Below are positions 3,914-58,672 of a stretch of DNA of 64,000 nt, piece after piece (within the stretch, counting starts at the first letter, position 1; each line of letters starts with the position of its first letter). The notes under the pieces are model-generated. The model was not told the origin of the DNA. It worked only from the letters and a program-made list of their open reading frames with translations, and ran no database searches. The DNA is taken from NCBI GenBank assembly GCA_032622095.1, contig CP136067.1, forward strand, positions 60,026,893 to 60,090,892, in the 5' to 3' direction. This stretch comes from Siphonodentalium dalli (Eukaryota > Mollusca > Scaphopoda > Gadilida > Siphonodentaliidae). Position numbers and translations under genes: made by a program.

Positions 3914-6510
3914 TTAAATGTGGGAAACGATACATCTAATATCGGTTGATAAACAACCTAAGAATGCCATCGACTGCTCTTGAATAGGTAGAGAATCAAT
4001 ATGTATGAAAAACGGTACGCCAAACATATCAATGATATCGTACCATACTTGTATTCTCTGATCGGACGTTGCAGAACATGCCAAAATAGCGTGTTCAACA
4101 ATGTTGCTGAACGTAGTATTGCATACCTTACAATTGCCAGGTTCTTGAGAGGTGATTTTGGTCAACAGCTGGCACACGAGTAGGAATTTATGCTTTTCAC
4201 AGTTGATAATTCTACATGAGCGCCATAGTTGGGCTGGAAAAAGGCAGTTGTGACTTTTGTTGAATGCCGTCAATGGTTGGTCGCCTCTCAGGCGGTTTTC
4301 TAGCTCAATTTTGTTTTTATAGTTGATCTGCTGTGTAACAAGGGTTTTCCATTGACTTTTAGTTGGAAACTGACCATGTGAGGCATAGTCTACAATATAC
4401 GATGTGAGATTGTATTCATTTGCCAATATGTGTACGTCTGTTAAAAATGCGGCAACGTTTGGTGTTTGGTTAGATGTTTGGTTCGATACAAGGTTGTCGT
4501 TCAAGCGTGCAATGAAAATGTCCTTTGCAGCTCTCCCGCCTGGAGTTCTACACAGATTGCCAAAGAAACAGAGTTTTCGCTTGTTTATAAAGGAAGCGAG
4601 AGAGCTTAAACCAAGTAAGCCTTGGACAACGTCAGTGCGAGCCCTAAATGAAAACCCTTGGATACGTTTCAAACAGAATCTGTGCACACGTTCTAATGAA
4701 GTTATGTTAGTTTGAGATAAGCCGCACATGAGTTCCACCCCATATAATCCCTTTGGTAATACGATTGATTTGTAGATTATTTGGCAGCTAAGAAGTGTGA
4801 TACCACCTGCATACATCCCTGCATTGCTCAGCATAAGATAGACTGAGCGAATTTTCTTAATTGTATGATCAACGAATTGATTTATATGAGCATTTTTATG
4901 CAGGGGGATGCCCAAGTGAGTGACGCTTTCTGTTTCAGATATTGGCTTCTCGTTTAATGTCCAAGTATTTTTTGTGCGAGATTTTGATGACGCGCCAGAT
5001 TCGCTGAAAACGATCACCTTACACTTTTCCTGGTTATACTGGTACCGCCATTTTTGACTGAACTTTCCACAAATATCACATAGTAGTTGAAGGCCATTTG
5101 TGGTTAGAGATAATAGCGTCATATCGTCGGCCTGTGTTGGTGAAGCACAATTGATGGAACCCAATCTCATCCCTAACTGTGAGTTCTCTAGTTCAGTTAA
5201 TAAATCGTTTATAAATAGCTTATATAATACAGGGGATAATATGGTACCTTGTCTTGTACCTTGGCTAATATCAAATGTTCTTGAGTTTGCATTGTTGAAT
5301 CTGACGACGCATTTGAAACCATTAAGTAGAGTGTCAAACAATAGAAATATCTTGCCGCAAAAACCACGATTATATAACTTGAATAGTAGTCCGTCTATCC
5401 ACACTGTGTCGAAAGCTTTTCTGACATCAAGGAAGCATGTGTATAACGGACTGTGTAATTCACTGGTATATGTGAAATATTCGTTTAAAACAAATGATGA
5501 GTGAAGACAGCTGCATGACTTCTTTCTGAAAGCCGTTTTGCAAAGGGTGAACACGAATGAGCTCAGGTGTGTGTGTTTCTAGGCGCGTGAGTGTAACTTT
5601 TTCCAAGACTTTATATAATACTGGGAGAAGAGTGATTGCTCTGTAGCTGTCGAACACCTTTTTCGGTTTTGCCCCACCTTTATATAAAGGGATTATCACG
5701 CCAATTTTTGCCTGGTGTGGGATGTGATTGAGTTCCATCACCATCGACAGCATATATGCTACAGACGTAATGAGACTTTCGCCTCCATGAATAAAGTGTT
5801 CATATGAAAGTGAATCGTGACCTGGAGATTTGCCTTTGCCGGCGTGTTTTAATGCATTGTGCACTTCTTCTGGAGTTATTTCATAACATAATATGGCGTC
5901 AATTTCTTCTGAGCATTGTATACTAATTATTTGTGAGACGGAATCAGTGACATATCTAAAATGCTCGTGATCAAAATTTTCTAAGTCAAACTTGGAGTAT
6001 AGAGACTCAAAGTAATCGGCCCATGCATTTATTACATCATCGGGCTCTCGCAGAGGATTACCATCCACTTCGAAAAGATTATGTGAAGGGTCTTTCCGTC
6101 GATTACGATTTCCATTGAAAGCCCTGAAGAAATTATTAATATTTGACTCTGCCATATGATCTACTCTATCGTCCATTTGTCTTAGAAAATTTTCATTAGC
6201 TTTTCTATGCTCACGTCGGAAAAGGCATTTTGCATCCTTGTAATTTTTGTAGTCAGGATGTGTGTTGTCATGTGGTTTACCGGAAATGATCCAAATATTG
6301 CGGTAGTGTTTCATAGCTTTGTGCCGCTGTTTTAGGTTATCATTCAAGTAAGGCTTTAAGTGTCGTTTAAATGATGTGACTGCATGGGACAAACACTTCA
6401 GCTGCGTCAGTAACTGCATATATGACTTTGTTGTAGAATGCATTTAGGTCTTCCTTGGACGCAATTGAATGTGGTGGTAAACTGCCGCCTATTTGGGCCT
6501 GATATTGTAT
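3914..6510 (-). pseudogene. LINE ORF2, reverse transcriptase and C-terminal half (broken)
   Basis: Encodes the reverse transcriptase that copies the LINE RNA at the nicked target. Recognisable RT blocks in order are GKGKSPGHDSLSYEHF, PLYKGGAKPKK...YRAITLLPVLYKVLEK, FLDVRKAFDTVW (first catalytic Asp), QGTRQGTILSPVLYKLFIND, and TQADDM near 5126-5134 with both catalytic Asp present. The residue before ADD is Gln, where many families have Tyr or Phe. A C-terminal C-x2-C...H...C cluster follows, as in many APE LINEs. The gene is cut at its 5' side by the LTR element at 6510. Frameshifts lie near 6395 and near 5520, where the same protein resumes in another frame. The coding part ends at 3914. Confidence 0.85.
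6507..6510. other. Target-site duplication of the LTR element, left copy
   Basis: GTAT immediately before the left LTR (TGTGACGG start at 6511), matched by GTAT at 13997-14000 immediately after the right LTR. Confidence 0.8.
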
Positions 6511-7603: not shown

Positions 7604-9795
7604 TGGCAGTGGCTTCCAGAACTCTTGGAAATTCGAAGAAGTTGTGTTTCTTTAAGTGAAACTGGTAAACCAGCCCAAAGATAACTGTTTCTGGAAACTG
7701 GGAAATCCCAACCTGTCAACTGAGGACGCGCACGCAGTAACAACAATGTGTCGCCCGTGTGATCTATTCGTTCAGTGATTGTTTGATCCAGTGCAGTGTG
7801 TAGGCAAACTATTGTGCTATTCAATTATCGCTTGACCAAGTCGCGCATCGATGGAGTGATGACCTAGATTCGTTGACAAATACTACAGTGTGTAGAATCA
7901 CAAACTGTGACGTGCTAAATTGTAAACAATTCACATTCAATTGGGATCTGATGTCAATTATTCTCAAAATGCCCATTGTTTATTTATATGCACACTTGTT
8001 TTGTTTATATGCACTTCTGTTCATTCTGATTTGAGCCATGCATCCTCAATAGCTTAATTAGTTTATTTAGGGTTGTGAGCTTGTGTATGCAACTTTGGTG
8101 ACGTGACCCCGGTCATGCTGTCAAATGTGCCTGTATAATCTTATAATTAACGTGTGTCGTGTATAAAGAGCGTTCTATTTCTTATTCAAAGTATTGTCTG
8201 TTTTTCTTCAACGCTCAATAAAGTGCTCTGTTTGGTAAACCCGACACATAAATAGAACTTCCGGTTTTGCGTTGTAAACATTGACACATGGCTTTTTGTT
8301 GACATGTCAACGTGAGCAAATCCGGACGATTTTGTCATTGTTTTTCATCAGTGCCAGTATTTTTTGTAAGTGTAAGTTGTTTTCATGCAAACTATAGACT
8401 AGTTAATATACTGGTAATTTATTTTGAGGCTCATAGCATGTTCAAAATGTTGTATTTGATTGAGTATCCAAAATTGACAACAAAATTTGTCAGGCCACTT
8501 TGTCAAATTTCTCATGTGCCAGAATCACACTGCTGATTAAGTGATATTTTTCCAAAGCCGGACTTGTTGGAAAATATTTGAATTTTTCCAAACATTCCGT
8601 GTTTTCTGGTTGTGTAAATTTAATCGCTTTCTGCGGATGCATACTTAACTTACTGCATCATTTGTGTTGGCATTTTGGATGCAAATAATTTTTGCATCAT
8701 CCCTGTAGTGTTTAAGCTGGCATTTGTGAAAATGGTAGTTTCAGCTTGTTTTCCATCAGCGTTGTTGTTCGATATTCTTCATTCTGCTTCAGTGTTTTTG
8801 TGTTATGTTCAGTAGTCGCAGATAACATAAGACGGTAAGTTTAGTGTCGTCTAGTCAGTTGGCCAATAATATTGGTCACGGTATCTTGTCCATACCGACT
8901 TTCCCCGACCTACATTCTGACTTGCCCACTTGTCGCTTGACATTTCAATCTTTTTGTCGTACAATACCGTGCGCTCGCATCATTTCATATCATCGCATGA
9001 ATTAAATAATTCAAATTAATAATGGTATAATTAATTAACTAAGCTAATTATATCTAAATCTTTGATTTGCTTTATAAATTTAGTTTTGTTTCAGTTTTTC
9101 TCACTGACTCGCAGTGTCAGAAATTTTTCATTCTGACGTCTACATCAGATTAGTGAAATTAGGTAACTTCGCTCGTCTTGTAAAAAAATTTCAGATTTTC
9201 CGAAGACGGTGGCCGCAGTACATTGAAAATAGGACACTTAGAATTTTTTTCAGTTCGTTCGCATTTTAGTTCGGATATAGGTGATTAGTTTCGACTTTGA
9301 ATTTTTTCAGCTCGTCGTCAGACATTATTGAAGTTAGGTGACTTGTCCCGACTTAGATTTTTTTTCAGCTGTTTTTGCATTGAAATTAGGTGACATGGTT
9401 GTACTTTGAAATTTTTTTTGTAGACGGTAGCCGATTTACATCGACATTAGGTGACTTCATCGGACTTAGAATTTTTTTTCCAGATATTTCTGCGTTATCG
9501 TACATATAGAGATTTATTTCTTCTTTTTATGCTAAAGCCGTAATTTATTTACAGTGAACTTAGGACTTGAATATTTTTTTCAGATTTCAATTAGCAATTG
9601 CATGGACTTGAATATTTTTTTCACAGGTTACGATAGTCAATAGTTATTAGATAGCTGATCTTGAAATATTTTTCAGATATTTTTCTAAATAAATTATTGG
9701 TTAATACATTACTTTAACCACAACTTGCTGATTGATTTGAATAATTGTGTTTATGTGTATTATTATTTCCATATTGTTCATTAAATTGAATCAAG
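7604..9795 (+). other. Long 5' leader of the LTR element
   Basis: About 2.2 kb without a recognisable coding region between the primer-binding site and the first ORF. The capsid region of Gag would normally lie at the start of the coding part and I see no trace of it here. The last 650 bp carry a degenerate repeat in which AGGTGACTT-like words alternate with runs of T ending in CAG. Confidence 0.7.
9150..9680 (+). repeat. Degenerate leader repeats with T-tract plus CAG
   Basis: At least eight blocks of A-T(5-9)-(C)AG, for example near 9241, 9301, 9357, 9411, 9470, 9571 and 9666. Several are preceded by TTAGGTGACTT-like words, with irregular spacing of 40-100 bp. Each block resembles a polypyrimidine tract plus 3' splice acceptor. 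Confidence 0.6.
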
Positions 9796-11127
9796 ATGGC
9801 CGGTGTTGATGACTTACAGTCAATGGAGCGGAACGATGAGTTATTAGATAAGATTACAGCTCAGATTGGTAAATTAAGGAAACAGATTGAAAGACTCCAG
9901 GAGGAGCAGGAGATGGAAATGCAGAATGAGAATGCCTATTACACCAATTATTATAATAATGGTTATGATTATAATAACACTTATTCTAGGCGTAGACGGT
10001 ATAAGCAGAAGAGGTCACAGAACCATAAAGGTTCACAGAGAGATGCTCATGAAGTGAATGATTTTAATCATCCTTCTAATGACAGGTTGCAAGATGATAT
10101 AAATTGTTCCAGACAATTTGTAGGTTGTTATAAATGTGGAGAGGACTCACATTTTTCTAGAGGTTGTAGGAATTTCAGGTACTGGAATAGGGGCAGAGCC
10201 AAACAGACTTATAATAGTCATTCTTCCAGACCTCAGCAGCAGTCCATGAATCTTAATTTACAGGATCCTTCTGGTTTAAGTGGAAGTCCCGCAGAGACTG
10301 AAGTTCAGGTAGCTGGCTTTAATACAAAAGCACTTCTTGATACAGGGAGCACAGTCAGTACTATTTCAGAGCGATTTTATACTTCATTTTTATCGAAGTC
10401 CCCACTTCAGCCTCTAAACCAGATCCTGAACATTGAGTGTGCAGATGGTAAAAGCCTTCCGTACCTAGGGTACATACACTGTCCAGTGACAGTTTCTGAG
10501 TTTACTCGGAATGCGACAAGAGATTGTATTTTTCTTGTAGTGCCAAATAGCAATTATAACTTTTCAGTTCCAGTGTTGTTAGGTACAAATGTGTTAGCTG
10601 ATTTCATGGAGATTTGTAAGCAGCAGCATGGTTCCAAGTTTTTGCAGGTATCTAATCTGTCTTCTCCATGGTATATGTCATTCCGCTGTATGACATTCAG
10701 AGAAAGGAACCTTGCAAAGAATAATTTTGTTTTAGGGCAGGTTAAATCTGCAGAGAATCAGCATGTGATCCTTCATCCAAACACAAAGAAAGTTCTTTCA
10801 GGTTTTATTGATCACAAGATACCATATCAGCCTACATGTGCAATTTTGCAACCACTTCCAGATGATAGTCGATTTGATTTTTTAGAAATATGTCCGTGCG
10901 TTGTTAAATATGATTGCAAGAGTAATGATTCGATTGATGTTCATCTGTCCAACATTTCTTCCAGAACCATTAGCATTGCTCCTAACTCTGTAATATGCCA
11001 GATTCAACCTGTTTCAGTAGAGGATACAGAGGAGTCTAAGCCTGGTGAAACAAGTTCTTCATTTACAGATCAACTTCAGTTTGACTTATCTTCTTTGACA
11101 GCTGATGAATTTAAAGCTGGGATGTAA
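9796..11127 (+). CDS. Gag-like zinc knuckle plus aspartic protease ORF
   Basis: 443 codons, starting at an ATG in the context CAAGATGG. Residues 10-45 are a charged, heptad-like helix (likely coiled coil). Residues 46-80 are Tyr/Asn-rich then Arg/Lys-rich. A CCHC knuckle lies at C111, C114, H119 and C124 (CYKCGEDSHFSRGC), a retroviral-type nucleocapsid RNA-binding motif. A retropepsin-type active site DTGS is at 182-185, followed by hydrophobic flap-like sequence, so the ORF would provide RNA binding and polyprotein cleavage. The ~110 residues before the knuckle are far too short for a normal capsid, so Gag is internally deleted. It ends in TAA at 11125. A second in-frame TAA is at 11134, after which the pol frame continues unchanged. 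Confidence 0.85.
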   Translation: MAGVDDLQSMERNDELLDKITAQIGKLRKQIERLQEEQEMEMQNENAYYTNYYNNGYDYNNTYSRRRRYKQKRSQNHKGSQRDAHEVNDFNHPSNDRLQDDINCSRQFVGCYKCGEDSHFSRGCRNFRYWNRGRAKQTYNSHSSRPQQQSMNLNLQDPSGLSGSPAETEVQVAGFNTKALLDTGSTVSTISERFYTSFLSKSPLQPLNQILNIECADGKSLPYLGYIHCPVTVSEFTRNATRDCIFLVVPNSNYNFSVPVLLGTNVLADFMEICKQQHGSKFLQVSNLSSPWYMSFRCMTFRERNLAKNNFVLGQVKSAENQHVILHPNTKKVLSGFIDHKIPYQPTCAILQPLPDDSRFDFLEICPCVVKYDCKSNDSIDVHLSNISSRTISIAPNSVICQIQPVSVEDTEESKPGETSSSFTDQLQFDLSSLTADEFKAGM

Positions 11128-12078
11128 CTTATTTAAAGTTTTTCAGATGTTTTCTCTCAGAGTGACTTGGACTTAGGTTTTTATAACAGGATTAAACATC
11201 GGATTGATATGTATGACAGTACACCTTTTAAGCAGCGTGCAAGACACATTCCACCTAGTATGATTGAAGAGGTCAGAAATCATCTTCATCAGTTACTTTC
11301 AGTTGGAGTTATTAGAAGATCCAGGAGTCCATTCTCTTCTAATGTTGTGCTTGTTAGGAAGCGCGGTTCTAATGCTCTTAGACTCTGTGTTGATTACAGG
11401 CAACTCAATAAACAGACTATACCTGATAATTATGCTTTGCCTAGGCCAGAAATGTTGTTTGATTCTCTCAAAGGTGCCAAGTACTTCTCTGTGCTTGATT
11501 TGAAAATGGGTTTTCATCAATTAGAGATCTCCGAGGAACACAAAGAGAGAACTGCTTTTTCTGTTTCAGGATTAGGATTTTACGAGTACAATCGCTTAGC
11601 TTTTGGACTTAACAATAGTCCAAGTTCATTTCAGAGAATGATGGAGGATTGTCTCGAAGGTTTAAACCATAATATCTGCAATATTTATATTGATGACATC
11701 ATTATTTGGTCGCAGACGGTTCCAGAGATGATAGAGCGACTTGAAGCTGTTTTTGACAGATTGAGGCAGTGTAATTTGAAGCTCGCACCTTCAAAATGCA
11801 AATTCTTTCAACGTAAATGTACTTATGTTGGTTTTATAGTTTCAGAGCATGGAATTGAAACTGATCCTGAGAAAGTTGACAAAATTGTCAATTGGCCAGC
11901 TCCGGAGAATCCAGATCAGTTGAGGAAATTTTTAGGTTTCTGTGGTTTTTATAGGAAATTTGTCAAGAATTTTTCTGCAATTTCTAAACCCCTTACAGAT
12001 TTACTCAGAACATTAATATTTCCGGTTAGTTACAGTTGTGTCTGTGACTATCTATCTTTACAGTGCTTTTATCTGTAA
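11128..12078 (+). CDS. Truncated pol: reverse transcriptase only
   Basis: Same frame as the upstream ORF, resuming after stops at 11125 and 11134; the first Met is at 11167. It encodes the fingers, palm and thumb of a Ty3/gypsy-type reverse transcriptase. Motifs counted from Met 11167 are VDYRQLN at 75-81, LDLKMGF at 110-116 with the first catalytic Asp, AFGLNNSPSSFQ near 145, YIDD at 174-177 with the catalytic pair, and FLGFCGFYRKFVKNFS near 255-270. Homology stops after KPLTDLLR, followed by about 20 unrelated residues and TAA. RNase H and integrase, which normally follow, are absent. All RT catalytic Asp residues are intact despite the truncation. Confidence 0.88.
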
Positions 12079-12923: not shown

Positions 12924-13996
12924 TGTGACGGTGTAATTTAGCCCTAGTTTATATACAACTAATACAAGTTAATACTGACAACTAGCAGCTAACATATTCA
13001 TCCATATCACCGGTATTTACGACATCCCGTTTACCCTCTCAACTTTGCTGTATTCGATCCGTCCCTGTCTTATCACTGTCACTTCAGCCCAATGCTAAAC
13101 GCTCTAGTACCGCCACTTCAAATAATACAGGTAAGCTCGCAGCTGATTGGATGACACATGGTCGCGCGTAAAGTTGTCAAAGGTTAAACAGTTTCGCGGG
13201 GTTTTAGATTAGTTTGTCAGAAAGTAAAGTTGTCTTCGGAAAGTTATTGTCTTAAAGTCTTAGTTTATTTTGTCGTCAAGATGTCGTCAAGTTGTTTAGA
13301 CTATCGTTGTATACAGATCCTGACATAGTGGCCTATGTCTCATTGAACTGGTATGTTCACAGTTTCTATATTTTATCGTTATAACATGTTTTTATTAATA
13401 CTTTTGTCTTCAAGTAAATCACCATAGAGTTTGTCCATTTTGACATAAAGTATATTTCCTATTTTAATTATATTTTAATGTGATTACTTTTGTGAGGTTA
13501 TCTCCCGATAACCTGAGATGCCAGTTTGTAGATATCTCAATTAGATAGATTGGATATCTGGCATTTCTTGTATTTTCAGGAACTCCTCAAGTTCCTTTAA
13601 CATATATTTGTGTATGCACATATGCGTGCTTATCATGCAAATGGTAATATATTTGCATTTGGTTGCAGGGCCTATGATATAATATTCTATGCCTATAGTG
13701 ATGTATGATAACACTCTCTGTGTTATGTGAACAGACTATGCCAGTCTGTGGATGATGTTTGATTGTATGTGTTGGTGGTGATGATGATGATGATGATGAT
13801 AATCAAGATGTGTTATTAAGATGAATAAATGCTATTGAAGACTACAAAAGGTAATATGAACTTTCCATAGACCCTGCCCACCAACACTGAGAATTCATTG
13901 ACGGAGCCCATACTGCCAAGGCTAACTTTATAAATTTAATGTCAAAGGCTCAAGGACATTTAATAATATAAATGGACCCATAGTAACCCTATGACA
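12924..13996 (+). repeat. Right LTR
   Basis: 1073 bp. Reads as identical to 6511-7583 by eye in every block compared, including the GAT-repeat length. Ends CTATGACA before the GTAT duplication. Confidence 0.95.
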
Positions 13997-14810
13997 GTAT
14001 GATGTTCTCGCTTGCTGATTCAAATTTCCTCCAGTTAGGTTTTATTTGAGCGGATGTTAGGCTAGGGTCGTTGGCGCTTTCGCCGTATGATATGCTCATG
14101 ACGATAGGGCGATGATTTGAGACATTAATTGGGGAGTCACCCAAGACCTCAATTTTAGATATTCTCGACTTGTCTTGTGTCGGTACAAGAATGTGGTCGA
14201 TTATGCTACCTCCATTTCCATTGGGCGCAACAAATGTTTCGGATAATCCCCTGCAAAGAGGGCTTGAATTTGCTGAGAAGAATTTGCTTTCATTCACAAA
14301 TGTGGAGAATGACCTGTTTCTGGCGTCTGATTTTTGAAGATTACCATTGAAGTCTCCCATCAAGATCAAATGCCCCAACAAGGAGTAACTGCTTATTATA
14401 TCTGAGAGAAATTTGATATAGTCTCTGTAAAATTCGACAGCGTAGTTGGTACATGGCATGTATACCTAAAAAATGTAGATATATACCCCCGGTCTGAGTC
14501 TAAACTGTATGCCACAAATGCGATCGTCGGACATGTCTAAAATTGTTATCTTGCTGTTATGCTCGGTTTTCCATAGAAGGGCGACACCTCCTTTGTATCT
14601 TCCGCGTTGCATATGTACACGTTGAGTTGCATCACAAACTGCGTGAAAACGATAATTTGGATCAACTGATTCCAGAAAGTGAGCGTTATGTTCGTGGAGC
14701 CAGTGTTCTGATATCCCACATATATCGGTATTTTGAGTTGACAACATATTACTGAGATAACTGCTGCTGGAGAGCAATCCGGTACAATTCCACGTAACAA
14801 CATTCAGCAT
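13997..14810 (-). pseudogene. LINE ORF2, APE endonuclease part (broken)
   Basis: N-terminal apurinic/apyrimidinic-type endonuclease that nicks the target DNA for LINE priming. It starts MLNVVTWNCTGLL (metal-binding Asn), then has ISEHWL (catalytic Glu), GGVALLW, LILMGDFNGN (Asp/Asn) and SNHRPIV (catalytic His; the preceding residue is Asn where SDH is common). A TAG stop at 14466-14468 interrupts the frame, which then continues unchanged with VYMPCTNY. The remainder of ORF2 is on the other side of the LTR element from 6510 downward. Confidence 0.85.
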
Positions 14811-14923
14811 GACCGCAAAAATTGGATTGACTTACAAACAAAATTAATAGGAGCATGCGACCAAAGGTAGCTGAGAATATAGAGATATATATACCAAGTA
14901 CAATGAATAGTTGTGCCTATAAT

Positions 14924-16228
14924 TTACGTGCGTGTGTTGGTATCATTGGAAATCCATTCTGTGCACGTGACTCCTTTTGGGAAGCAGTCAGGGCCTCTAC
15001 AGTAGATACTATCTGAAACACCAACGTTAATTCGGGCTGATATTTGGCCATTGCTGCGAGATCTGAAAACATGAACAATTGTGAATTTAACATGTGCGTC
15101 GATCAAAAATTTGGCCATAATTTGAGAGTTCATTGTTTCTGGTAGATTGGAAACAAAGAGTCTAGTTGTCTTGATAGGATAGTCGTTGCGCCTGCGGTAT
15201 ATATCACGATTGTCATTGCGATTAATTGGCGAAGAACCGCTACGTCTCATTCCTGAACTCGTACCAGTTGGTCGGAAAACACTGTTATGTTTGTCGTCAG
15301 ACGGTCTGTCGCGCACGTTGTTGAACCGGTCGTCACATTCATAATCACGACTATAAGATGAGTAATGTTTGTTGTGGTCTAGACGATCCCGTTTACCGCT
15401 ATTTGCATTTTGCCTGCGATCACGCATTTCATACCAATCATCGCGCTGGTAATCGTCATTGTCACGAGAGTCCCTGTCTGTGTATTTGTCGTCAACTCTG
15501 CCGTTATCTTGGTAGTTGTCTCGTGGGTGCTTATAGTTAGTTCGCTCGTCTCGCTCAATCGGATTACCGTTGTTATTTTGTGATGCCTCTGATGGTGCAG
15601 CATCGGATTCAGCAGCGATGTCATTTTGTTCAGCCTGTTCGTCCGAACAGTTATCCCAGACAGTGTATTCATTTTGTGCGAAAGCATCATCAACGGTATC
15701 TTTTATGTTGCTGCAGAATTGATCTAAGCGTTCGCACAATAGGTCGCCAAAATTTGTCAGCGCTTCCTTCAAGTCATCTAAATTAGTTTGACTTTGCGGT
15801 TCGGATTGGGCATTTTGTGTCGTTTTGTTGGTGAGTCGCTTTAAGTTGTCACTAAGTGTTCCGATAGAACCTGCATTCTTGTTGATAGCTTTGACCGCTG
15901 TTTTGGCTTGCTCTAGGGGTGTTTCGATGTCGGCCTGTAGGTCCTTGATTCTCGAGCGACAGTTCGCAACACCGTCGCATTTCTCGTCGATATAACGCTG
16001 TAATTTATGTTCATTAGAATGTAAGATTTCGGTGTTTTCAGAGACCATGTCCTCAATGCCCGCTACAGATTGTTTAATATCTTCAATGGTGCTTTCGGTG
16101 GGCTGGGAGGCAATGCGCTTTTCAAGTTCTGCAACGCGATCACTGACGTTCGATATGGACTCTGTTATGTTGGGAATTGCATTGAGAATTTTCTGCGTGA
16201 GATTTCTATTCTCAATCAACATATCCAT
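14924..16228 (-). CDS. LINE ORF1: coiled coil, Asp/Arg-rich tract, RRM-like domain
   Basis: 434 codons, intact. Residues 1-180 are helical with heptad-like spacing (ITESISNVSDRVAELEKRI and following), suggesting a multimerising coiled coil. Residues 225-335 are an unusual mixed-charge tract dominated by Asp, Arg, Asn, Tyr and Ser. Residues ~350-430 hold an RRM-like fold beginning KTTRLFVSNLPE, with a second RNP-like strand ISARINVGV. This is the RRM-type ORF1 layout of LINE RNA-binding chaperones, which package the LINE RNA. It begins 19 bp after the stop of the upstream ORF in a different frame. A 113-bp gap separates it from ORF2. Confidence 0.75.
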   Translation of the reverse strand: MDMLIENRNLTQKILNAIPNITESISNVSDRVAELEKRIASQPTESTIEDIKQSVAGIEDMVSENTEILHSNEHKLQRYIDEKCDGVANCRSRIKDLQADIETPLEQAKTAVKAINKNAGSIGTLSDNLKRLTNKTTQNAQSEPQSQTNLDDLKEALTNFGDLLCERLDQFCSNIKDTVDDAFAQNEYTVWDNCSDEQAEQNDIAAESDAAPSEASQNNNGNPIERDERTNYKHPRDNYQDNGRVDDKYTDRDSRDNDDYQRDDWYEMRDRRQNANSGKRDRLDHNKHYSSYSRDYECDDRFNNVRDRPSDDKHNSVFRPTGTSSGMRRSGSSPINRNDNRDIYRRRNDYPIKTTRLFVSNLPETMNSQIMAKFLIDAHVKFTIVHVFRSRSNGQISARINVGVSDSIYCRGPDCFPKGVTCTEWISNDTNTRT

Positions 16229-16247
16229 TGTTTGAGAGTGAACCGAG

Positions 16248-16898
16248 TTATCGAGGAAATGTTGTCTGGGTTGGTTGGTGCGACATATTCATGGTACCAT
16301 TTGCTGACAGTGATTGTTTTTGGCTCTTACTGAGGAGATCATGTAAGCCATTTCCGCCGTCCACAAGAAAGAATAAGAGAGAATATATGTCAGATGATAG
16401 TTTCTGAAAGACTTCCTGCCCACCTTTGGCGTTCACACGGTTTTTTAGAATGGAGTATGGATTGTACAATTGTTGGAATGTTTTGTCGGACTTTACTTCA
16501 GAGAATATTGCAAGTCTAACTTTCTTTAGGATGCTTTCGTCCCTGTCGGTAATGTTTTCTATAGCTCTGGTTATGCTGTCTCTGGGAGTGGAGTTTACAA
16601 ATTTAGTACAAGATGTGACAGCTACTCGGTTTGCCCAATCACCAGGCTCCATGCACGTGGCAACTTCCTTTAATTGCACAAAAGCCGATTCCATGTCTGG
16701 GTTTCTACGATATGTGTCAGTCGTCATTAGTTGTGGCTGTGGAGTTGAGCAAGATGTCGAGTCATATTGGTAGGATCCAATATTTTGGTCTTGATATTTA
16801 ACATTTGAGAGGGTCTGAAAAGATGCTCCAGAGATAGGGTCAACTAACACTTCTCCAGCTTCGTTGATTTGAGCCATGGCCATGCAGGTATGCAGCAA
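16248..16898 (-). CDS. Unknown ORF upstream of LINE ORF1
   Basis: 216 codons, or 210 from the downstream start MAQINEAGEV, which is also in good context. I recognise no family. The N-terminal third is Ser/Thr/Gln-rich. Residues ~75-190 look compactly folded, with alternating hydrophobic and charged stretches (KKVRLAIFSEVKSDKTFQQL, FQKLSSDIYSLLFFLVDGG), and the tail is polar. It lies on the same strand as ORF1 and ORF2 with only 19 bp before ORF1, so it is probably part of the same LINE transcript. It could be a third LINE ORF, or the original N-terminal part of ORF1 separated by a frameshift and stop. It could be translated first and ORF1 by reinitiation. Confidence 0.55.
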   Translation of the reverse strand: MLHTCMAMAQINEAGEVLVDPISGASFQTLSNVKYQDQNIGSYQYDSTSCSTPQPQLMTTDTYRRNPDMESAFVQLKEVATCMEPGDWANRVAVTSCTKFVNSTPRDSITRAIENITDRDESILKKVRLAIFSEVKSDKTFQQLYNPYSILKNRVNAKGGQEVFQKLSSDIYSLLFFLVDGGNGLHDLLSKSQKQSLSANGTMNMSHQPTQTTFPR

Positions 16899-17814
16899 AA
16901 CTGTTATAGTGTGCTCAATTAATTATAAGTTACAAAGGGCAATCATTTGGTGAGCACTATCCATTTCACAGCGAATCGCCTGGCAATATAATCAGAGTGG
17001 TGATATTGATTTTTCAGTACTTGCACAACAGGTGAATTGGGTTCATGTATAGGTCAATTGGGCTGATATGGCGGAAACAGCAGAATAGCCTTCAGAGCAT
17101 CAAATGTTTTATTGGGCGTGAATTTTATGTGTTGGTGTAGAATTTTCGAACAGAGTTTTGAATATTTTGAACTGTTTTGTTTTATCCAAACATACCGTTT
17201 TTGAGCAAAGCGTCCATGTCCGAGAATTTCAAACAGTGATAACGATGCCTTGCATCCGAGAAAACGATCACAGCGATGAACATATCATAATACCATAGAG
17301 AGATATGAAATTAATTGGAAATTTCGTCCCTGGAAAATGATAACAAACCGGCGGCGGCCATCTTCATACGTCAGACTAATATCGCTTAGTGGACTAGTTA
17401 CGGATATAGCTGTACACCCCTCCGACGGTATGTTTTAGTCCCCTCCTCATTATTGTTTTAACCATTGCTGAATATTGAAAACAATTATGTTCTAAGTAGA
17501 AAAATGTCATATAACTCCACAAAAAAGTATGACATATTTCATAATCATAGGTTCACAAGTTCCCATGGTTCTAAATATATATGCCAAGTAAAAACAAAAC
17601 AAATGACCGCAAAATATAGGAATAAAAACTCGGAAAATTGCATCTACGGAAGGACGAATAAGCTGCCTCTTGTATAACCCCACAACTCGTTGCGAGTGTG
17701 AAATCAAATATGAAAGTGTCAATGACACTGTACCTCAACTTAGGTAGGGGAATAATTTAATGGTTGACAGTAAATGGAGGAATAGGAAAGGTGCTAGCTA
17801 ATTGAAATGTCTAA
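16899..17814. other. Likely LINE 5' region, then no feature
   Basis: No coding region. The part next to 16898 may be the LINE 5' UTR, but no boundary is visible. A GCGGCGGCCATCTTC word occurs near 17351. Confidence 0.35.
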
Positions 17815-19456: not shown

Positions 19457-19461
19457 TCATC

Positions 19462-19522
19462 CACACCGCGTAATCAAATGGCCTGATCTGCACCTAAAAC
19501 TCTAATCTGCCTGATGGAACTG
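19462..19522 (+). repeat. Left 61-bp terminal inverted repeat
   Basis: Starts CACACCGCGTAATCAAATGG and ends CTGATGGAACTG. Reverse complement of 26728-26788 with one mismatch. Confidence 0.85.
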
Positions 19523-20440
19523 CTGCTCTGCGTGCTAAATATAGAATTTTTGTGTTGACGACCACCTGGTTGGCACTGAATAGTACATAGCACAGGGTGT
19601 TGCGTTATCCGCATGCTCAAATTTGTATTCCTGTGAAGTTACGTTCAGCCTCATCGTTCTGTCTTTTTCTCGACGAAAGTAAAATTTACGTTTCGCGCAT
19701 GCACTATATGCAATTTTGCGTACTTGTTAAAAATGACGCGAAAATGTTTTTCTCTTGCTGAATTCAAACTTAATTGGTTAGAACACGTATTATCGTAGTT
19801 TAGGGAAAATGAATGTGGTGTTGAGTGTGAACGTTACATCCTTCCATATGAATTCAACGACTATTGCCTGGTAAAACTGGATAAAAACTCGATTTGAATT
19901 GAAGTTCTGGTGACACTGATCGTGAATCGTGATGTTGACATTCATATTGTTGTTGACATTTTGATTGAATTTGTCAGCGGAAACACTCGTTTCTCAAAGA
20001 AAGAATTTGGGAACCTCAGAGAGTAAACACACACACAAACTGAAGTTTCACTAGTTAGGTGACCGATGTTCGTCAGTTTCTCTTAATATCGTCTAAGCTG
20101 ATAAGGAACGCTCTAAGCTGATAAGGAACACTCTATATATTCATATATGATCAGCTATGAATAGTATGATAATATATGCCCCCCCCCCCCCCCCTTAGGA
20201 TCAACGACACTTATCCGACAGGACCTCCTGTGTTAATTTCCCCCTGTATGTGAATTTCCAGCAACCAGAGTCCAACTATTTTTGGTATATGATTAATTAT
20301 TTAATTATAATTGTTTATTAGTGCCCCTTTAAGTCGTCTTAGATCAACGGCACCTATAAGTACATGTACACCATAGACTTGAAATAGGGGGGAAACTCTT
20401 AAGTTCATATTATCAGCATCCCTGTCCCCAAATAAGATCC
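19523..20440. other. Interior sequence without genes
   Basis: No recognisable coding region. Contains a short tandem of AAGCTGATAAGGAAC (20095-20130) and a 16-bp run of C at 20179-20194. Confidence 0.4.
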
Positions 20441-20910
20441 TCTTTCTATTGACAAAAACATTAGAAATGTGTTTGTCTCGGTCTGTACCAGTCAAATCAG
20501 TTTGTCTCATGGTTCCCAAATAAGATCCTCTTCAAAATTATTCTGTCTCGGTCTGTCCCAGACCTTTCTATTGGGACAGGAAATATCAAAGGTAAATAAT
20601 ATATTTAATATGAAAACATTAGGAATGTGTTTGTCTCGGTCTGTACCAGTAAAATCAGTTTGTCCCATGGTTCCCAAATGAGATCCTCTTCAAAATAATT
20701 CTGTCTCGGTCTGTCCCAGACCTTTCTATTGGGACAGGAAATATCAAAGGTAAATAATATATTTAATATGAAAACATTAGAAATGTGTTTGTCTCGGTCT
20801 GTACCAGTAAAATCAGTTTGTCCCATGGTTCCCAAATAAGATCCGCTTCAAAATAATTCTGTCTCGGTCTGTCCCAGACCTTTCTATTGGGACAGGAAAT
20901 ATCAAAGGTA
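20440..20910. repeat. 158-bp tandem repeat, about three copies
   Basis: TTCTGTCTCGGTCTGTCCCA recurs at about 20541, 20699 and 20857. Each unit holds a perfect 8-bp stem CTGTCCCA / TGGGACAG with an 11-base loop. Copies 1 and 2 also carry GGTAAATAATATATTTAATA, which is absent where the third copy ends at 20910. Confidence 0.9.
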
Positions 20911-20938
20911 AAGGTGACTGGTTTGACATGACACATAG

Positions 20939-21898
20939 CCACCCGGTCGACATATTAATTTTTGTACTTCGGACACGGAACTCGGGGGCAATAATGTAAA
21001 TCAGGAAACGTGCACCCAGAGTGAACAGCACTACGTTGATGTCGTGAAAACTGGACCTAAGACAATTGTGACTAATTTATCTTCACATCGGCTAACGAGC
21101 GCAGAGACTTCGATATTGGAGAAAGGTCTAACGTTCATTCCCACGAATAAGTCAGCTGATAAATCGAAGTTACTTGCTGATTTAAATGAGTGGGAGCGAC
21201 GAATGAGACTTAAAGAATTTTATTTTGGCAGAACAGATGATTCGCGCCCGGATGCGGAATTACTGGAACAAAAGTTCAAACTGAAGAAACATAGCACTTT
21301 CACACCTAACACTGGACGGGATTTAGCACTTGATAGCTATATTCTTCAAGTTAAAAATGAAATTATGACGGGGGTGAAAAGAGTGGATAAGAGGAATATC
21401 AGCGATGATGAGAGGAAAGCTATGACATCTCTTCTTAACAACGAGTCAATAATAATTAGACCAGCCGACAAAGGATCGGGGATAGTTGTGGTAGACAAAG
21501 CAGACTACATCCAAAAACTGTATGATGAAGTACGAGGAAACGATTTATATACGGAAACAGATGGTGACCGGACAGATGAATCGACCAAGAATGTGAAACG
21601 GTTACTTAACAGAATGTCGCGGGAAGGAAAGATTTCTGGTGAATTAAAAGCATATATGAATCCGAGATATCCGGTGGCTGGTAAACTTAAAGCAAACCCA
21701 AAATTACACAAGGAAAACGTACCGTATAGGACAATAGTTAGTGGTATTGGTACCCCAACGGAGGGGATTGCGGAGGTAATGGAGTATGAACTAGAGCAAT
21801 TTGTAGTAGAGTCACCCACCTACATAAAGGACACTACCGACTTCCTAAATAAAATTAAAGATGTCGCGAACGTACCGGAAAATGCTGTTTTGTTTTGA
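20939..21898 (+). pseudogene. Penelope-like protein, N-terminal part
   Basis: The frame is open from 20939 with no ATG. It carries the N-terminal region and first RT blocks of a Penelope-like protein: LTSAETSILEKGLTFIPT, then IIRPADKGSGIVVVDKADY (nucleotide-binding palm region), PKLHKENVPYRTIVSGIGTPT and a helical stretch. It ends at 21898, where the protein continues in another frame from about 21885, so one indel near a T-rich stretch broke the gene. The start was probably lost by 5' truncation. Confidence 0.82.
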
Positions 21899-23270
21899 TA
21901 TAGTGAAATTATATCCGTCGGTTCCCCGCAAGGAGGGTATGGAGGCGTGCAAAGAAGCACTTGAGTCAAGAAATAACCCACTAATCGAAACAAAGTATGC
22001 GATGGAAATGATAGACCTAGTGTTGGAGAGCAATAACTTCAATATTGCTGACAAATCATTTCTGCAAAACGATGGAGTTACCATAGGATCGCGACTCGGG
22101 AGAAATTACGCATGTACTTTTATGAGGAAATGGGACGAATCACTCTTAAAGTATAATCAGGCGCCGACATTTTACAAAAGGTATATAGATAACGGATTCG
22201 GTGTGTGGACTCATGGTATCGAACAACTGGAAAAATTCATTGCCCACGCTAATTCAATACATCCCAAGATTAAAGTTGAACTTCGATATGCAGATGATAA
22301 AATTGAATTTCTGGATACAATGGTGCATTTGTCGAATGGGAAATTGTATACGGATTTGTATAGAAAACCGACTGATAAGATGCTGTATCTAGACAAGGAT
22401 TCTAGCCACCCCGCTCACATAAAGAGATCGGTGGTGTATGGTCTAGGTATTCGCATGAGGAGAATTTGTGAAAAACAGGCAGATTATTTGCGACATCGCC
22501 GTGAGTTGAAAAAGCAGCTGATGCGGAGGGGATACAGTGCGCGATTCATCGAGAAACAGCTCAGAAAGGTAGATAGATTAGACAGGAAGCAATTGTTAGA
22601 ACGCCGGAAAACAGCAAATGTGTCCAAAAATAGAAGGGTGCCTCTTGTTGTGACATATAACAGTACTCTCCCGGGCTTAGGACAGATAACCAGGAAGCAT
22701 ATGGATATTCTATATGAATCAGACCAGATGCGGGTGGTTTTTGCCGAGCCGCCTTTAATATCATACAGAAGGGACAGTAATTTGGGAGATATTCTGGTTC
22801 ATCGTAAAACGAGTAGATCTGTGTCGATGCCACCACAGTTATGTACGGATTCGTGTGCCACTTGCATAATTATGAGTTTGGATGAAGTTAAAAATACGAC
22901 GCGGAATACGGAATATAAAGTATGTAGACATAGTAATTGTAAAACCAGAAATGTGATATATTGTTTAAGCTGTTTGATATGTGGATCCGCTGTGTACGTT
23001 GGTGAGACAGAGAGACAATTGTCGGAAAGGATTCTGGAACATCTGAGGGACATTAGACTTCACGATGATAAGCCAGCCTATGAACATTTTAATCAACTGG
23101 GACATTCCATTGACAACATAAGGGTATCGGTTTTAGAAAAGGTCAATGGGAATAAACATCTGAGACTGATACGTGAAGACCATTGGATATCAAAGTTGAA
23201 AACCCGGACTGGCCACGGATTCAACGCCAGAGGAAATGGCGCCAACTTCTGGATGTCGATGCTGCGATAG
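21861..23270 (+). pseudogene. Penelope-like protein, RT palm and GIY-YIG endonuclease
   Basis: Counted from the first Met, FCFDIVKLYPSVP (residues 10-22) holds the first RT catalytic Asp. The second catalytic block reads KRYIDNGFGVW at 106-116, where the family normally has two Asp. The change Asp to Asn at residue 111 (codon AAC at 22191, one transition from GAC) should destroy polymerase activity. IEFLDT follows. A Lys/Arg-rich helix spans ~190-260. A Cys cluster is at 328, 332 and 335. The GIY-YIG nuclease has NVIY (364-367), YVGET (379-383), an SER with the conserved Arg, EH, and LIREDHWI with the catalytic Glu. The YADD at 143-146 lies outside the catalytic position. Confidence 0.87.
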
Positions 23271-23393
23271 CGTTGCTTGGTGTTTGACGTTCTCTGACGA
23301 AAGACCTTTAACGTCGTTGTGTAATATCCGCCATTATTATTTGTTTGTATGTTTATCTGAATGCCATCATGTGATTTTGTCTCAATAATATCA

Positions 23394-23430
23394 ACTGAGG
23401 AAGGCCTGAGGCCGAAAGCTTTTGAAGAGC
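23394..23430 (+). ncRNA. Hammerhead-ribozyme-like motif of the Penelope element
   Basis: CTGAGGA (23395-23401), then a GGCC stem (23403-23406) with its partner GGCC (23410-23413), then GAAA (23414-23417) and a possible GCT/AGC stem III. Penelope-like elements are known to carry hammerhead ribozymes with the core CUGAUGA...GAAA. Here one core base differs (G for U) and no standard cleavage triplet is clear, so this is probably a decayed copy. Confidence 0.45.
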
Positions 23431-23880
23431 GAGTTATTTAATTTATGTACCAACATTGAGTCCTTCACATTTGACTAAAAACAATTAATGCTTATCATTT
23501 ATGATGAGAGCTTGTGTAAAATGTTTTACTGTGGAGGTTTACGAGCATATTTTCACCTCTGCTCAATACAAATCATTAATAACACCACACACATATGGCA
23601 TTAGGACACCAGTAGCTCGAAGACGAGTGTGACTCGCCACACAGTAGCATTTCAACCAGGCTCTACTCATAATTCACTTTATAATATTGATTTTGATTTG
23701 AGAAAGAAAAACATGTCATTGAATTGTCCAAAAGTTGTGTACAGGCATCTTTCAAAATATGTGAATGCATTATGATCATGAGTCTAAATCAGTATTGACG
23801 CTCCAATGCGATACAAAATTTGTGGCAATAATAAGAAAGAGTAAAGTCCACAGGTGATTTTAAATGAAAAAAATATAAGG
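23431..23880. other. No feature seen
   Basis: AT-rich, non-coding. The 3' boundary of the Penelope-like element lies somewhere before this tract ends. Confidence 0.35.
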
Positions 23881-24560
23881 CACACCGTTGATGGGGAAGT
23901 CACACACAAAGGCATAAAATCAGCGCTATTGATATTTTCTACCAGAAAGTCTCAAATTGGCATCGCAAAATTGTATTTGGTGTTACCTAGATCATACCAT
24001 GAACCTGTACTTTGGCTAACGCTACGGCGTTAGCCAGAGTAGAGAATCATTGCATGATCTAGGTGTCACCGAGAAAAGTGCACCATTTAGAATGATAAAA
24101 ATGTAACATACAATCACAAAAATGTGGAAAGAGGCACACCGTTGGATGGGGAAGTCACAAACGAAGGCATAAAATCAGCATTATTAATATTTTTACCAGA
24201 AAGTCTCAAATTGGCATTGCAAAATTGGATTTAGTGCGACCAAGAAAAGTGCCCCATTCAGAACGAAAAACTTAGAATAGTAAATTGTGTAAAGTTGCAC
24301 ACCGTTGGGTGGGGAATTCACAAAGAAAGGCACTAAATCAGTGTCATGTATATTTACGACTTGAAAGTGTCCAATGACCATTGCCAAATGGAGCCTGGAT
24401 GATGGAATAAAAAAGTGAAAAATTCAGAATGAAAAAAATCATATGTAAAATCATGAAGATATGGAACCGCGCTACCATTGGGTGGGGAATTGACCCAGGA
24501 AGACATAGGACAAGGGAAGTCTGGGTCTTCAGGTTAAAAGTTTGTCATTTCCATCGCTGA
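23880..24560. repeat. Decayed tandem repeat, four units
   Basis: CACACCGTTG(G)(A/G)TGGGGAA recurs near 23883, 24138 and 24301, with a weaker copy near 24470. Each is followed by an AAGGCATAAAATCAG-like word and an AGAAAGTCTCAAATTGGCAT-like word. Spacing shrinks from 255 to about 165 bp because the first unit contains a hairpin insertion and extra sequence. Confidence 0.75.
23985..24065. repeat. Nested hairpin inserted in a tandem unit
   Basis: Outer arms CCTAGATCAT / ATGATCTAGG enclose an inner perfect stem TGGCTAACGC / GCGTTAGCCA with a 4-base loop. The next unit of the array (about 24233-24245) lacks this sequence. Confidence 0.7.
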
Positions 24561-24595
24561 ATGGGTCGTGGGGGCTAATAAGTCGAAAACTCAGA

Positions 24596-26412
24596 GGCCC
24601 GATTCGTCATCTCAGGTTTAAACCTGGTCTACGTAAACCTCTAGGTTTAAACCGCCGTGAGTCAGCAAAATCCGTGGTTTAAACCCGCGACCGCAGGTCT
24701 AAGTGACACATTCGTCATCTCTGGTTTAAACCTGGTCCAGCCAGACCAGTGGTTTAGCAGTGGTGTCTCTGTATCGTCGAGAAAATTAATCGTACTTTCC
24801 TAATGCGGACCGCCTCGTTTTATTGATTGCAAAAATCAATAATTTCGACAGCGACCATATTTTGATTGGAAATTTATAAGCGAGAAGCACTGACACCTAT
24901 AAAGCGTGTGGGGATAAGTTTTTGTCAATTTCGATGTTTTATTTGCGTTTTATAAGCTTAAACCGGCAACTAAACCATCTAATTAGGTGGTCCAGCTAAA
25001 CCAGCTTTCTCGAGGCTAAACTTGAGATGACGAATCCGTCTTTTCTTCATCGCGGTTTAGAATTGTCAGACAATCAATCAAAGGGTGGAGCTGTAAATTA
25101 TCTCGAGTGAGGGCGTGTCCAAGTGGCGGTTGCCGACTGGTGTTATCATGTCACAGTTGATTCATTCCCATGCGAGCTTTGCTCAGATATTGACGCGTTC
25201 CTTCAGTATGATTTTACAACTATCTTGTGTTTTTTTTTTGGCTTGTGGCAATCACAAATACTGGTGTTTTCTACGAATTCATTTGAATGGTTCAACGTTT
25301 TAATTTTGAAACCAAAAACGATGCTACTGCATGACCAGATATGCTATACACATAGTTTGCAATCCTAAACTTATATTGCTATATGAGTCAAATTTGATAA
25401 CTTATTTTTATGTAGATCATGCCACAAAGCTCTACTCTGGCTCCGCTCATAAATTTCCATAATATTCCACCAGTTCAAAACCTGGGAACTTTTGGATTTT
25501 CTGCATGATGGAAAAATTTTACATTGAAAAAAAGCAACGCATGTAATATATTTCTTTATTAAATGCTGTGCCTCTATATAGTTGCCCACTTTAAACAGTT
25601 CAGATGCCGCTTCTGGTGTGTACTCATAAGCAAATTGCTTTTACTTGACTGACCTCTTGGTCCAGGATTGACACGATTATGGAGCCTTTATTCATGCAGC
25701 GTCAGAGGGTCCTGCGGCCCCTTCGTGCGACAGGAGCCTGCGTCACATTTGCGCACATTTTGATCATTTGATCATTTTTTTTAATTATATTGAAAACAAA
25801 CAAATATTAATATAAATTTTAAATATTGTTTCTTGTTAGATACAACTCCTTGCTCAATTTAACAACACAATTTTTTCATTTTATTTCAAATTAAATTATT
25901 CTTATTTGTAAATCATTTTTAGAACAGTTGCAAACAGACTAACGGACAAACATATATACAGCTCCTATATCCTTTAATATATACATAGATACATGTAGAT
26001 ACACCATATTTTGTCTTTGCGGGAAAAGCATCTTGTAGAAAATCAATCACAAACAAAGTGATAAACAGCGCCTGAAGCTCGTGTTGAGAAACATGCCCTT
26101 TGTCAAATTGGTTTAAACCAACAAAGAGATCGGATTAATGGTCCATGAGCTATACTCATTTCTCAGTGAATAAATCGTGCACGCGTTCGCGATGATTTAT
26201 GACATGTCAATAACCATTACATCGGCTTGTCTTTTGGTCCGATAGGTAAGAGGGTAGTTTGACTGTATGCTCATATCACCAAATCGAGTTGTCAATTAGT
26301 TGGTAACTGAATGACAAAAACGCCCCCTTAGACCCGGTTTGGCTGGACCGCCAATGTAGGTTTAAACCAGGTTTAAACTCGGAGGTTTAAACCGGAGATG
26401 ACGAATCCGGCC
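24596..26412. mobile_element. Non-autonomous TIR element, 1.8 kb
   Basis: The 18-bp termini GGCCCGATTCGTCATCTC (24596-24613) and GAGATGACGAATCCGGCC (26395-26412) are inverted repeats with one mismatch, flanked by AGA on both sides. A 3-bp duplication with GG..CC ends is compatible with PIF/Harbinger-like elements, though AGA is not their usual TWA target. Both subterminal regions are packed with GGTTTAAACC-type palindromes. An inverted internal copy of the end motif (GAGATGACGAATCCG, from about 25024) suggests a smaller ancestor of about 440 bp. There is no transposase ORF. Confidence 0.7.
25008..25190 (+). repeat. Dispersed repeat D, copy 1
   Basis: Inside the TIR element. Reverse complement of 59098-59285, sharing TTCTTCATCGCGGTTTAGAA, the AATTGTCAGACAATCAATCAAA region and ATCATGTCACAGTTGATTCA. 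Confidence 0.8.
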
Positions 26413-26727
26413 AGAATGCCATGTGCACCAATTCAACCGGCTGGTAAATCAAATTAATTCGTATTGGGAACCTAAGAACCAATCCGCGCGGTCATATTAT
26501 ATCATTAGTCGATGACTGCACCGAAGTTATTTGAAAACATTATTCAGTTTACTTACATTTTATGAGAATCGACGAGAGAAATTTCGCTGTTGTACAAAAA
26601 TATATGCCGGCGTGCAATCTCTTGCGGGTATGGATCACATGACCGAAGATCATGTGACTGGTCGAAATGACGATTGTCAGAGGCCGTCCTTGATGAGAGT
26701 AGCGAGATTGGACGGATGTGGCGTCTA

Positions 26728-26788
26728 CAGTTCCATCAGGAAGATTAGAGTTTTAGGTGCAGATCAGGCCATTTGATTACGCGGTGTG
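26728..26788 (-). repeat. Right 61-bp terminal inverted repeat
   Basis: CAGTTCCATCAGG...GCGGTGTG, the reverse complement of 19462-19522 apart from one base. Followed by TCATC. Confidence 0.85.
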
Positions 26789-26807
26789 TCATCAGCATTA
26801 TAAAATA

Positions 26808-57563: not shown

Positions 57564-58672
57564 GTTTTCTTTTTATTATATACGCCTTATTACTGCTCAA
57601 AGTTGCTATATTATGCATGCAGCATTCTCACTTTTAATACGACAACAAGTAAAACAATTCACAGAAAGCAACACCTGGTTGACCCAAATTTCTTACACCG
57701 ATCAGCTGATAGTACTTAGCAAAACCGATATCAAGTGATGACGTCATGGCGTCATTCGGCAAGCTACAGTGAAATAACAAAATGCTACAATGAAACTAGA
57801 ATGCACTCAGAGAGATGCCAACGTGCGCAAAAATGTAATAAACAATAATTTAAAAAATAATTTCACTGTATTTTACTTAATTTATTTTATTTTATTTAAT
57901 GTTAGCAAAAAAAGACAATTACCATTTCTCATCTCATCACAGATAAAAGGCAAATTACTATATTAATCATTTAAGTAATTAAAACCAATTCCATGTTGCC
58001 GAAAGGATGAGACTTTAATATCGATTAAATTGTTTTCAGCGGCATATTTTCATTTTCATTTTCCGATAGTCAAAGTTGACAAAAGGAGCAATTATAAGAA
58101 ATAATTAATACCATTTGTGTAAATGTCATATGTAGGTCTATGTAGGTCCCGAAGGAGTCTATAGACTCTTTGGTGTAGAGTTCTGATGGAGAAAATGTAG
58201 GTCGATCTATTTTTGTCATAACTCTGACGTATTTTGACCTGGGAGAAAAAATCGAAATCGAGGCTCACTACGAGCATGCCAGTTTTAAATATAGAAACAG
58301 GGAATCCGAACAAATGGCGATATCGGCGACAAACAAATAATCGAAAACAACACATAAGATAAACATAGCAAAAACGCGGCACAGTAAAAATGTCAGAACG
58401 CCACGAGGTTTTACGTCGTTTTTGGTGACGTCATGGAGTGAAACGGAGTAGGGTGACACCAAGCTACGTACGAATCTGTCTGATCGCCATACTGTTGCGC
58501 GAGCGCACGTAATAACGAAACGTTATGTCACTATATTTACACTCCCACGTGTGTGAGTGAGTTTATTCGGCCCAATGCCCGGAATAGCACAGGAAATGCT
58601 CATAGAAGTGCCTTCCTTCTACATTTGGTCCCGTGAGTGGATGACTCGAATTTTGATCAGGTAATTTTGCCA
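57564..58672. other. No gene recognised
   Basis: AT-rich; open frames up to 96 codons without motif. Confidence 0.4.

Follow-up and report, generated by a model that had tools for sequence, protein, structure and literature searches.

What left two inverted ends facing each other across 7.3 kb of a scaphopod genome? In a stretch of 64,000 nucleotides from Siphonodentalium dalli (assembly GCA_032622095.1, contig CP136067.1, positions 60,026,893 to 60,090,892 of the forward strand; hereafter the window), a sequence-only reading had singled out the segment 19457-26793 as a possible non-autonomous member of an undescribed DNA transposon family. We followed up this segment in the window and across the source genome (2.23 Gb, 9 contigs). 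Very probably, the segment belongs to a non-autonomous transposon family of the cut-and-paste type with ends CACACCGCGTAATCAAATGGCCTGATCTGCACC and is a decayed copy that other repeats later filled.

Inverted ends, target duplications and empty sites

The window copy is bounded by two arms of 61 nt (19462-19522 and 26728-26788) that match at 60 of 61 positions on alignment (98% complementary) and that both begin with CACACCGCGTAATCAAATGGCCTGATCTGCACC when read inward. TCATC adjoins them on the outside, at 19457-19461 on the left and 26789-26793 on the right, in the same plus-strand orientation; this target site duplication was read directly and is present as a single copy at the empty paralogous sites described below. 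The combination had been judged unlikely to arise by chance, and both the re-read ends and the genome search agree. The 33-nt end, identical in the outer part of the left arm, has 141 genome matches at up to three mismatches, compared with 0 for a reversed-pattern control, and its first 20 nt match exactly at 34 sites. These 141 ends exclude a structure confined to one locus, and the window feature is a real insertion, far beyond chance.

Copies at other, unrelated loci also carry target duplications, as the sequence-only reading had anticipated. Flanks were compared for 18 two-ended copies, equivalent to 17 independent ones (L005 and L008 have the same flanks), and 11 of these 17 (12 of 18 rows) proved to carry an exact duplication, 5 bp long in seven and 6 bp in four. 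By comparison, when left and right flanks were taken from different copies, an exact match was found in none of 304 combinations. The 5-bp duplications are TCATC in the window, ACAAC (L003), ATAGT (L004), TATTT (L005/L008), GATAT (L006), TAGAT (L010) and GATTT (L038); those of 6 bp are ACTGTC (L001), GGCTTT (L009), AACAAT (the copy on C4) and GTTACT (the copy on C3).

Empty sites give the strongest evidence that a single insertion took place, with one copy of an older repeat as its target. When the window flanks were joined with one TCATC, 13 other loci matched unbroken across the junction; 12 of these were fetched, the insert was absent from all 12, and four (L117, L120, L121 and L122) hold a single exact TCATC. 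For L005, too, there is one paralogue in which the flanks run on without a break, with TATTT present once. Because such junction matches lack the insert, they indicate a single insertion event, not an inverted duplication. Inverted ends common to copies at unrelated loci, duplications at those copies and empty sites are the features of a terminal inverted repeat (TIR) DNA transposon, apparently a non-autonomous one, in line with the DNA-transposon-type insertion proposed earlier.

The proposal of 61-bp TIRs stood as far as the pairing of the arms is concerned and failed as a native length. On the left (plus strand), family homology extends to about 19562-19566, so that about 101-105 bp of TIR are retained within 19462-19566, and the next repeat begins at 19567. 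On the right (minus strand), inverted-repeat, genome-match and boundary comparisons agree on 61 bp, and another element, TE-B, finishes at 26727. Since TE-B ends exactly at the start of the arm, we read these 61 bp as a probable remnant rather than a TIR of native length. In relatives, TIRs reach about 650-690 bp and enclose a core without a long open reading frame (ORF), the longest being 123 aa in eight short copies scanned.

The two window arms are also unusually alike. They differ at one of 61 sites, while alignments of other pairs, 61-67 columns long, contain 45 to 58 matches; both arms contain the variant CCTGATGG, for which no other genome site matches without a mismatch and one matches with a single mismatch. 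Given this near-identity and the private variant, either the window copy is younger than most or its arms have been homogenised. Across the family, 21 aligned ends are 79-90% identical to their consensus, and therefore most copies look old.

Several observations weigh against this account of the segment. Exact TCATC is absent from eight of the 12 empty sites, seven of which have substitutions or a small gap, while at L119 a deletion spans the site. An exact duplication is lacking in six of the 17 independent pairs: four of five bases match at L002, L023 and the copy on C8, and there is no duplication at L032, at the pair on C2 or at L007, the left end of which is damaged. The window copy shares with its relatives only the roughly 101-105 bp on the left and 61 bp on the right, and comparison with these relatives detected none of the family's own core within it. 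Finally, no transposase was found between the ends in the interiors read, and the cut-and-paste label is drawn from structure alone.

Contents of the window copy and of its relatives

No transposase was seen inside the segment and, as previously described, its interior is occupied by a Penelope-like element and other TIR elements. Beside the left TIR, genome matches and boundary comparisons delimit an unrelated dispersed repeat (19567-20054) with at least 41 matches, the window itself counted (527 first-look candidates, 40 scored). Repeat scans place three tandem units of 158 nt at 20455-20928, followed on the plus strand by a retroelement at 20939-23270 with two overlapping stop-to-stop ORFs (20939-21898 and 21849-23270). 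We take this element to be Penelope-like, judging by eye. Its ORFs gave nothing significant in Pfam; the C-terminal part has a weak match in a structure library to intron-associated endonuclease 1, a GIY-YIG endonuclease (E = 0.2), and several matches there with better scores cover just a short stretch, fall on repeat proteins and have little meaning.

The right half of the interior belongs to two further TIR elements, one inside the other. The inner part of TE-B, a long-TIR element, lies at 23442-24595 and matches another copy, L088, at 90%, and its outer end lies at 26412-26727 (match to L088 and genome matches). Between them, at 24596-26411, a third element with inverted arms and TTTAAACC-rich ends breaks the match to L088 and is nested in TE-B; it has a possible 4-bp duplication, CAGA. 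The outer end of TE-B forms ten inverted pairs among the matches listed, nine of them 4.3-6.2 kb apart and one 20.8 kb apart. L088 itself has TIRs of about 970 nt and a 9-bp duplication, AGCGACGAT, read from the sequence. MULE-like elements make duplications of this length.

Elsewhere in the genome, 100 of the 141 end matches were listed individually, and facing pairs among 110 ends with known coordinates lie 1.3 to 4.7 kb apart or more widely. The larger spacings are 7.3 kb (the window copy), 19.2, 19.5 and 24.6 kb, with one further pair at 51 kb. In the 24.6-kb copy, Gypsy-type ORFs (by eye) lie between the left TIR and the family core. The family resembles long-TIR non-autonomous DNA transposons in having no long ORF, many copies, a variable interior and a target duplication. 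An ORF-like stretch within the long TIR was rejected as coding, as it has no third-position excess and frequent indels.

Some copies have features of their own. The 19.5-kb copy (L014-L015, C8:52137262-52156837) has an interior of very large, near-perfect inverted repeats, including a 5.7-kb pair of arms at 99.65% identity, a 3.4-kb self-palindrome at 99.9% and repeats about every 300 nt. The variant CACATTGCGAAATC is identical in eleven listed ends (L016, L017 and nine others); because the two that were read, L016 and L017, are about 95-97% alike and also have the same outer 60-nt flank, this variant seems to spread inside a larger young repeat. L024 and L025 (C7:48445771 and 48456908) have the same flank in the same direction, 97% alike and 11 kb apart, and are a tandem duplication. 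Within the 24.6-kb copy, ORFs on the minus strand of L013 (1639-4498) have a DIRS-type look by eye; two pieces of them returned nothing in Pfam. A repeat at 57772-58516 of the window recurs at 92-95% identity near two family ends, about 1.3 kb inward of L062 and 0.1 kb inward of L083.

Other repeats are found in the remainder of the window. Gypsy-like ORFs occupy 9790-12078, for which Pfam gives a reverse transcriptase (E = 2.6e-33) as well as a protease that falls short of its cut-off, and ORFs resembling those of non-LTR retrotransposons (reverse transcriptase, endonuclease/ORF1; by eye) lie on the minus strand at 3914-6443 and 13989-16922. A 20-nt unit is present in 24 tandem copies (94%) at 1243-1734. 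No Rfam match reached the gathering threshold in the window.

Transposase search and competing explanations

The scan for a transposase covered all but 13 of the 100 listed ends (141 in total). Among whole copies it took in ten short ones and two complete long ones. Single ends were followed 2.5 kb inward in 20 cases, 3 kb in five and 10 kb in one, and three other ends, 39 mid-slices and seven extensions were added. The mid-slices lay 1.2 to 2.6 kb inward, and 26 of them had no match to the family core, some perhaps lying beyond a short element; L002, L010 and L018 were outside the ORF scan, with the extension of L018 scanned. The ORFs met were of reverse-transcriptase and Gypsy type, one hAT and others without assignment, together with a Tc5-type DNA-binding piece (L048) and a zinc-finger ORF (L073, by eye). 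Pfam, run on fourteen distinct ORFs from these loci with the remainder judged by eye, matched a GDSL-lipase in L012 and MOLO1 in L056. In the part of the ends read, no long copy encoding a transposase or RAG1-like protein was obtained, the result that the sequence-only reading had named as support, and the RAG1-like profile PF12940 found no match, a result of little weight because its controls were silent as well.

Genome-wide profile hits were then compared with the 110 ends. For hAT there were 1917 candidates, for DUF4371 there were 330 (150 scored in each case) and for KDZ there were 20 hits. Neither the scored DUF4371 hits nor the KDZ hits lay near any of these ends. One scored hAT, of BED type, lies 7.5 kb inward of a family end and another lies 7.2 kb outside one; the former was taken as chance, the number of hits expected by chance within 20 kb inward being 0.15 for each set (hAT or DUF4371).

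The leading guess is nevertheless that the family is moved by a transposase of the hAT5/hAT6 type, an unproven and tentative idea that we place ahead of a Transib or RAG relative or an unrecognised class. hAT transposases are plentiful in the source genome, and the family shares with hAT elements the CA..TG ends that these usually have. Duplications of both 5 bp and 6 bp occur among its copies, and the passage on these groups in PMC12730594, citing Kapitonov and Jurka 2007, gives hAT5 and hAT6 as groups within hAT that make 5-bp and 6-bp duplications. Here, however, both lengths are found in one family, TIRs extend to about 650-690 bp and no hAT transposase was found between the ends in what was read. 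The hAT loci themselves count against the guess: at 20 of the 150 scored, the 1.2 kb that follow the dimerisation domain downstream gave end matches of 15-18 of 33, which did not rise above shuffled maxima of 17-20. In addition, only one of the 150 hAT and 150 DUF4371 hits, the hAT just mentioned, is located up to 20 kb inward from any of the 110 ends, and L107, from the presumed family of that hAT (with an open frame also of 660 aa), has no such end.

A place in the Transib/RAG-like group, which the earlier reading had hinted at, is unlikely. The ends begin with CAC and seven of the 11 exact duplications are of 5 bp, including that of the window copy, as in Transib and protostome RAG-like elements; for the latter, the description available from PMC7204232 gives CACTWMCAAACKTYKBB ends and duplications that are invariably 5 bp. 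Beyond CAC, the likeness ceases: compared by eye with the protostome consensus, the end CACACCGCGTAATCAAATGG has CGT and not AAA at positions 8-10, four of the 11 duplications are of 6 bp, and there was no RAG1-like ORF in what was read.

Kinship with Maverick/Polinton, Ginger, IS3EU or Dada elements is very improbable. Long TIRs and the 6-bp duplications of some copies recall Maverick/Polinton, and duplication lengths are comparable to those of Dada (6-7 bp, with many elements in multicopy RNA genes, in the section of PMC8869645 that treats them) and TDD-4 (5 bp, in excerpts from PMC2836005, PMC8869645 and PMC8097293). The family ends, though, match none of the terminal motifs in the excerpted descriptions, namely (AGT)2 or (AG)3 for vertebrate Maverick (PMC8097293), TGTNR for Ginger (PMC2836005) and TAYGG..CCRTA with a 6-bp duplication for IS3EU of rust fungi (PMC12730594). 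Short relatives of the family have no long ORF, unlike Maverick/Polinton, and the ORFs read, as judged by eye, included no integrase, protein-primed polymerase or capsid gene, with no dedicated search made. As for Dada, the target of the window copy is a dispersed repeat, with no RNA gene seen there, and most exact duplications (7 of 11) are of 5 bp. We give least credence of all to the ends being the arms of one inverted duplication or foldback with TCATC adjoining by chance: the private variant common to both window arms would suit it, but it is refuted by the empty sites, and the 141 genome ends and the duplications at other copies likewise speak against it.

One broader proposal is that the ends define a cut-and-paste superfamily, or a major lineage, that has yet to be described; its transposase would make cuts staggered by either 5 or 6 bp and recognise an end of about 33 bp (CACACCGCG), and its autonomous copies would be extinct or lie outside what was read. 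We regard this as rather unlikely. A literature search found no paper with CACACCGCG in connection with terminal inverted repeats.

A possible history of the insertion

For the decayed, non-autonomous transposon copy that we favour, the structure suggests the following course. A transposase supplied in trans would have bound both ends and excised the element, which would then have been inserted into an older dispersed repeat, one of whose copies had been cut with a 5-bp stagger, and gap repair would have left TCATC on both sides. Later arrivals would have filled the element, namely the 488-bp repeat, the Penelope-like element, TE-B and the third TIR element inside TE-B. The family core may have been lost afterwards or may already have been missing when the window copy inserted. 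The ends, the duplications, the dispersal of the family, the empty sites and the nesting of the third element in TE-B are observed directly; the cut-and-paste movement, the action in trans, the order of the other events and the loss of the core we infer.

Reading the raw sequence thus found a real transposon insertion, for which the empty sites give direct support. The mix of 5- and 6-bp duplications fits cleanly none of the families whose features were compared. As it stands, the finding gives this repeat-rich genome one more family, an old and apparently non-autonomous one, and an autonomous copy, if found, would show which transposase makes such flexible cuts.

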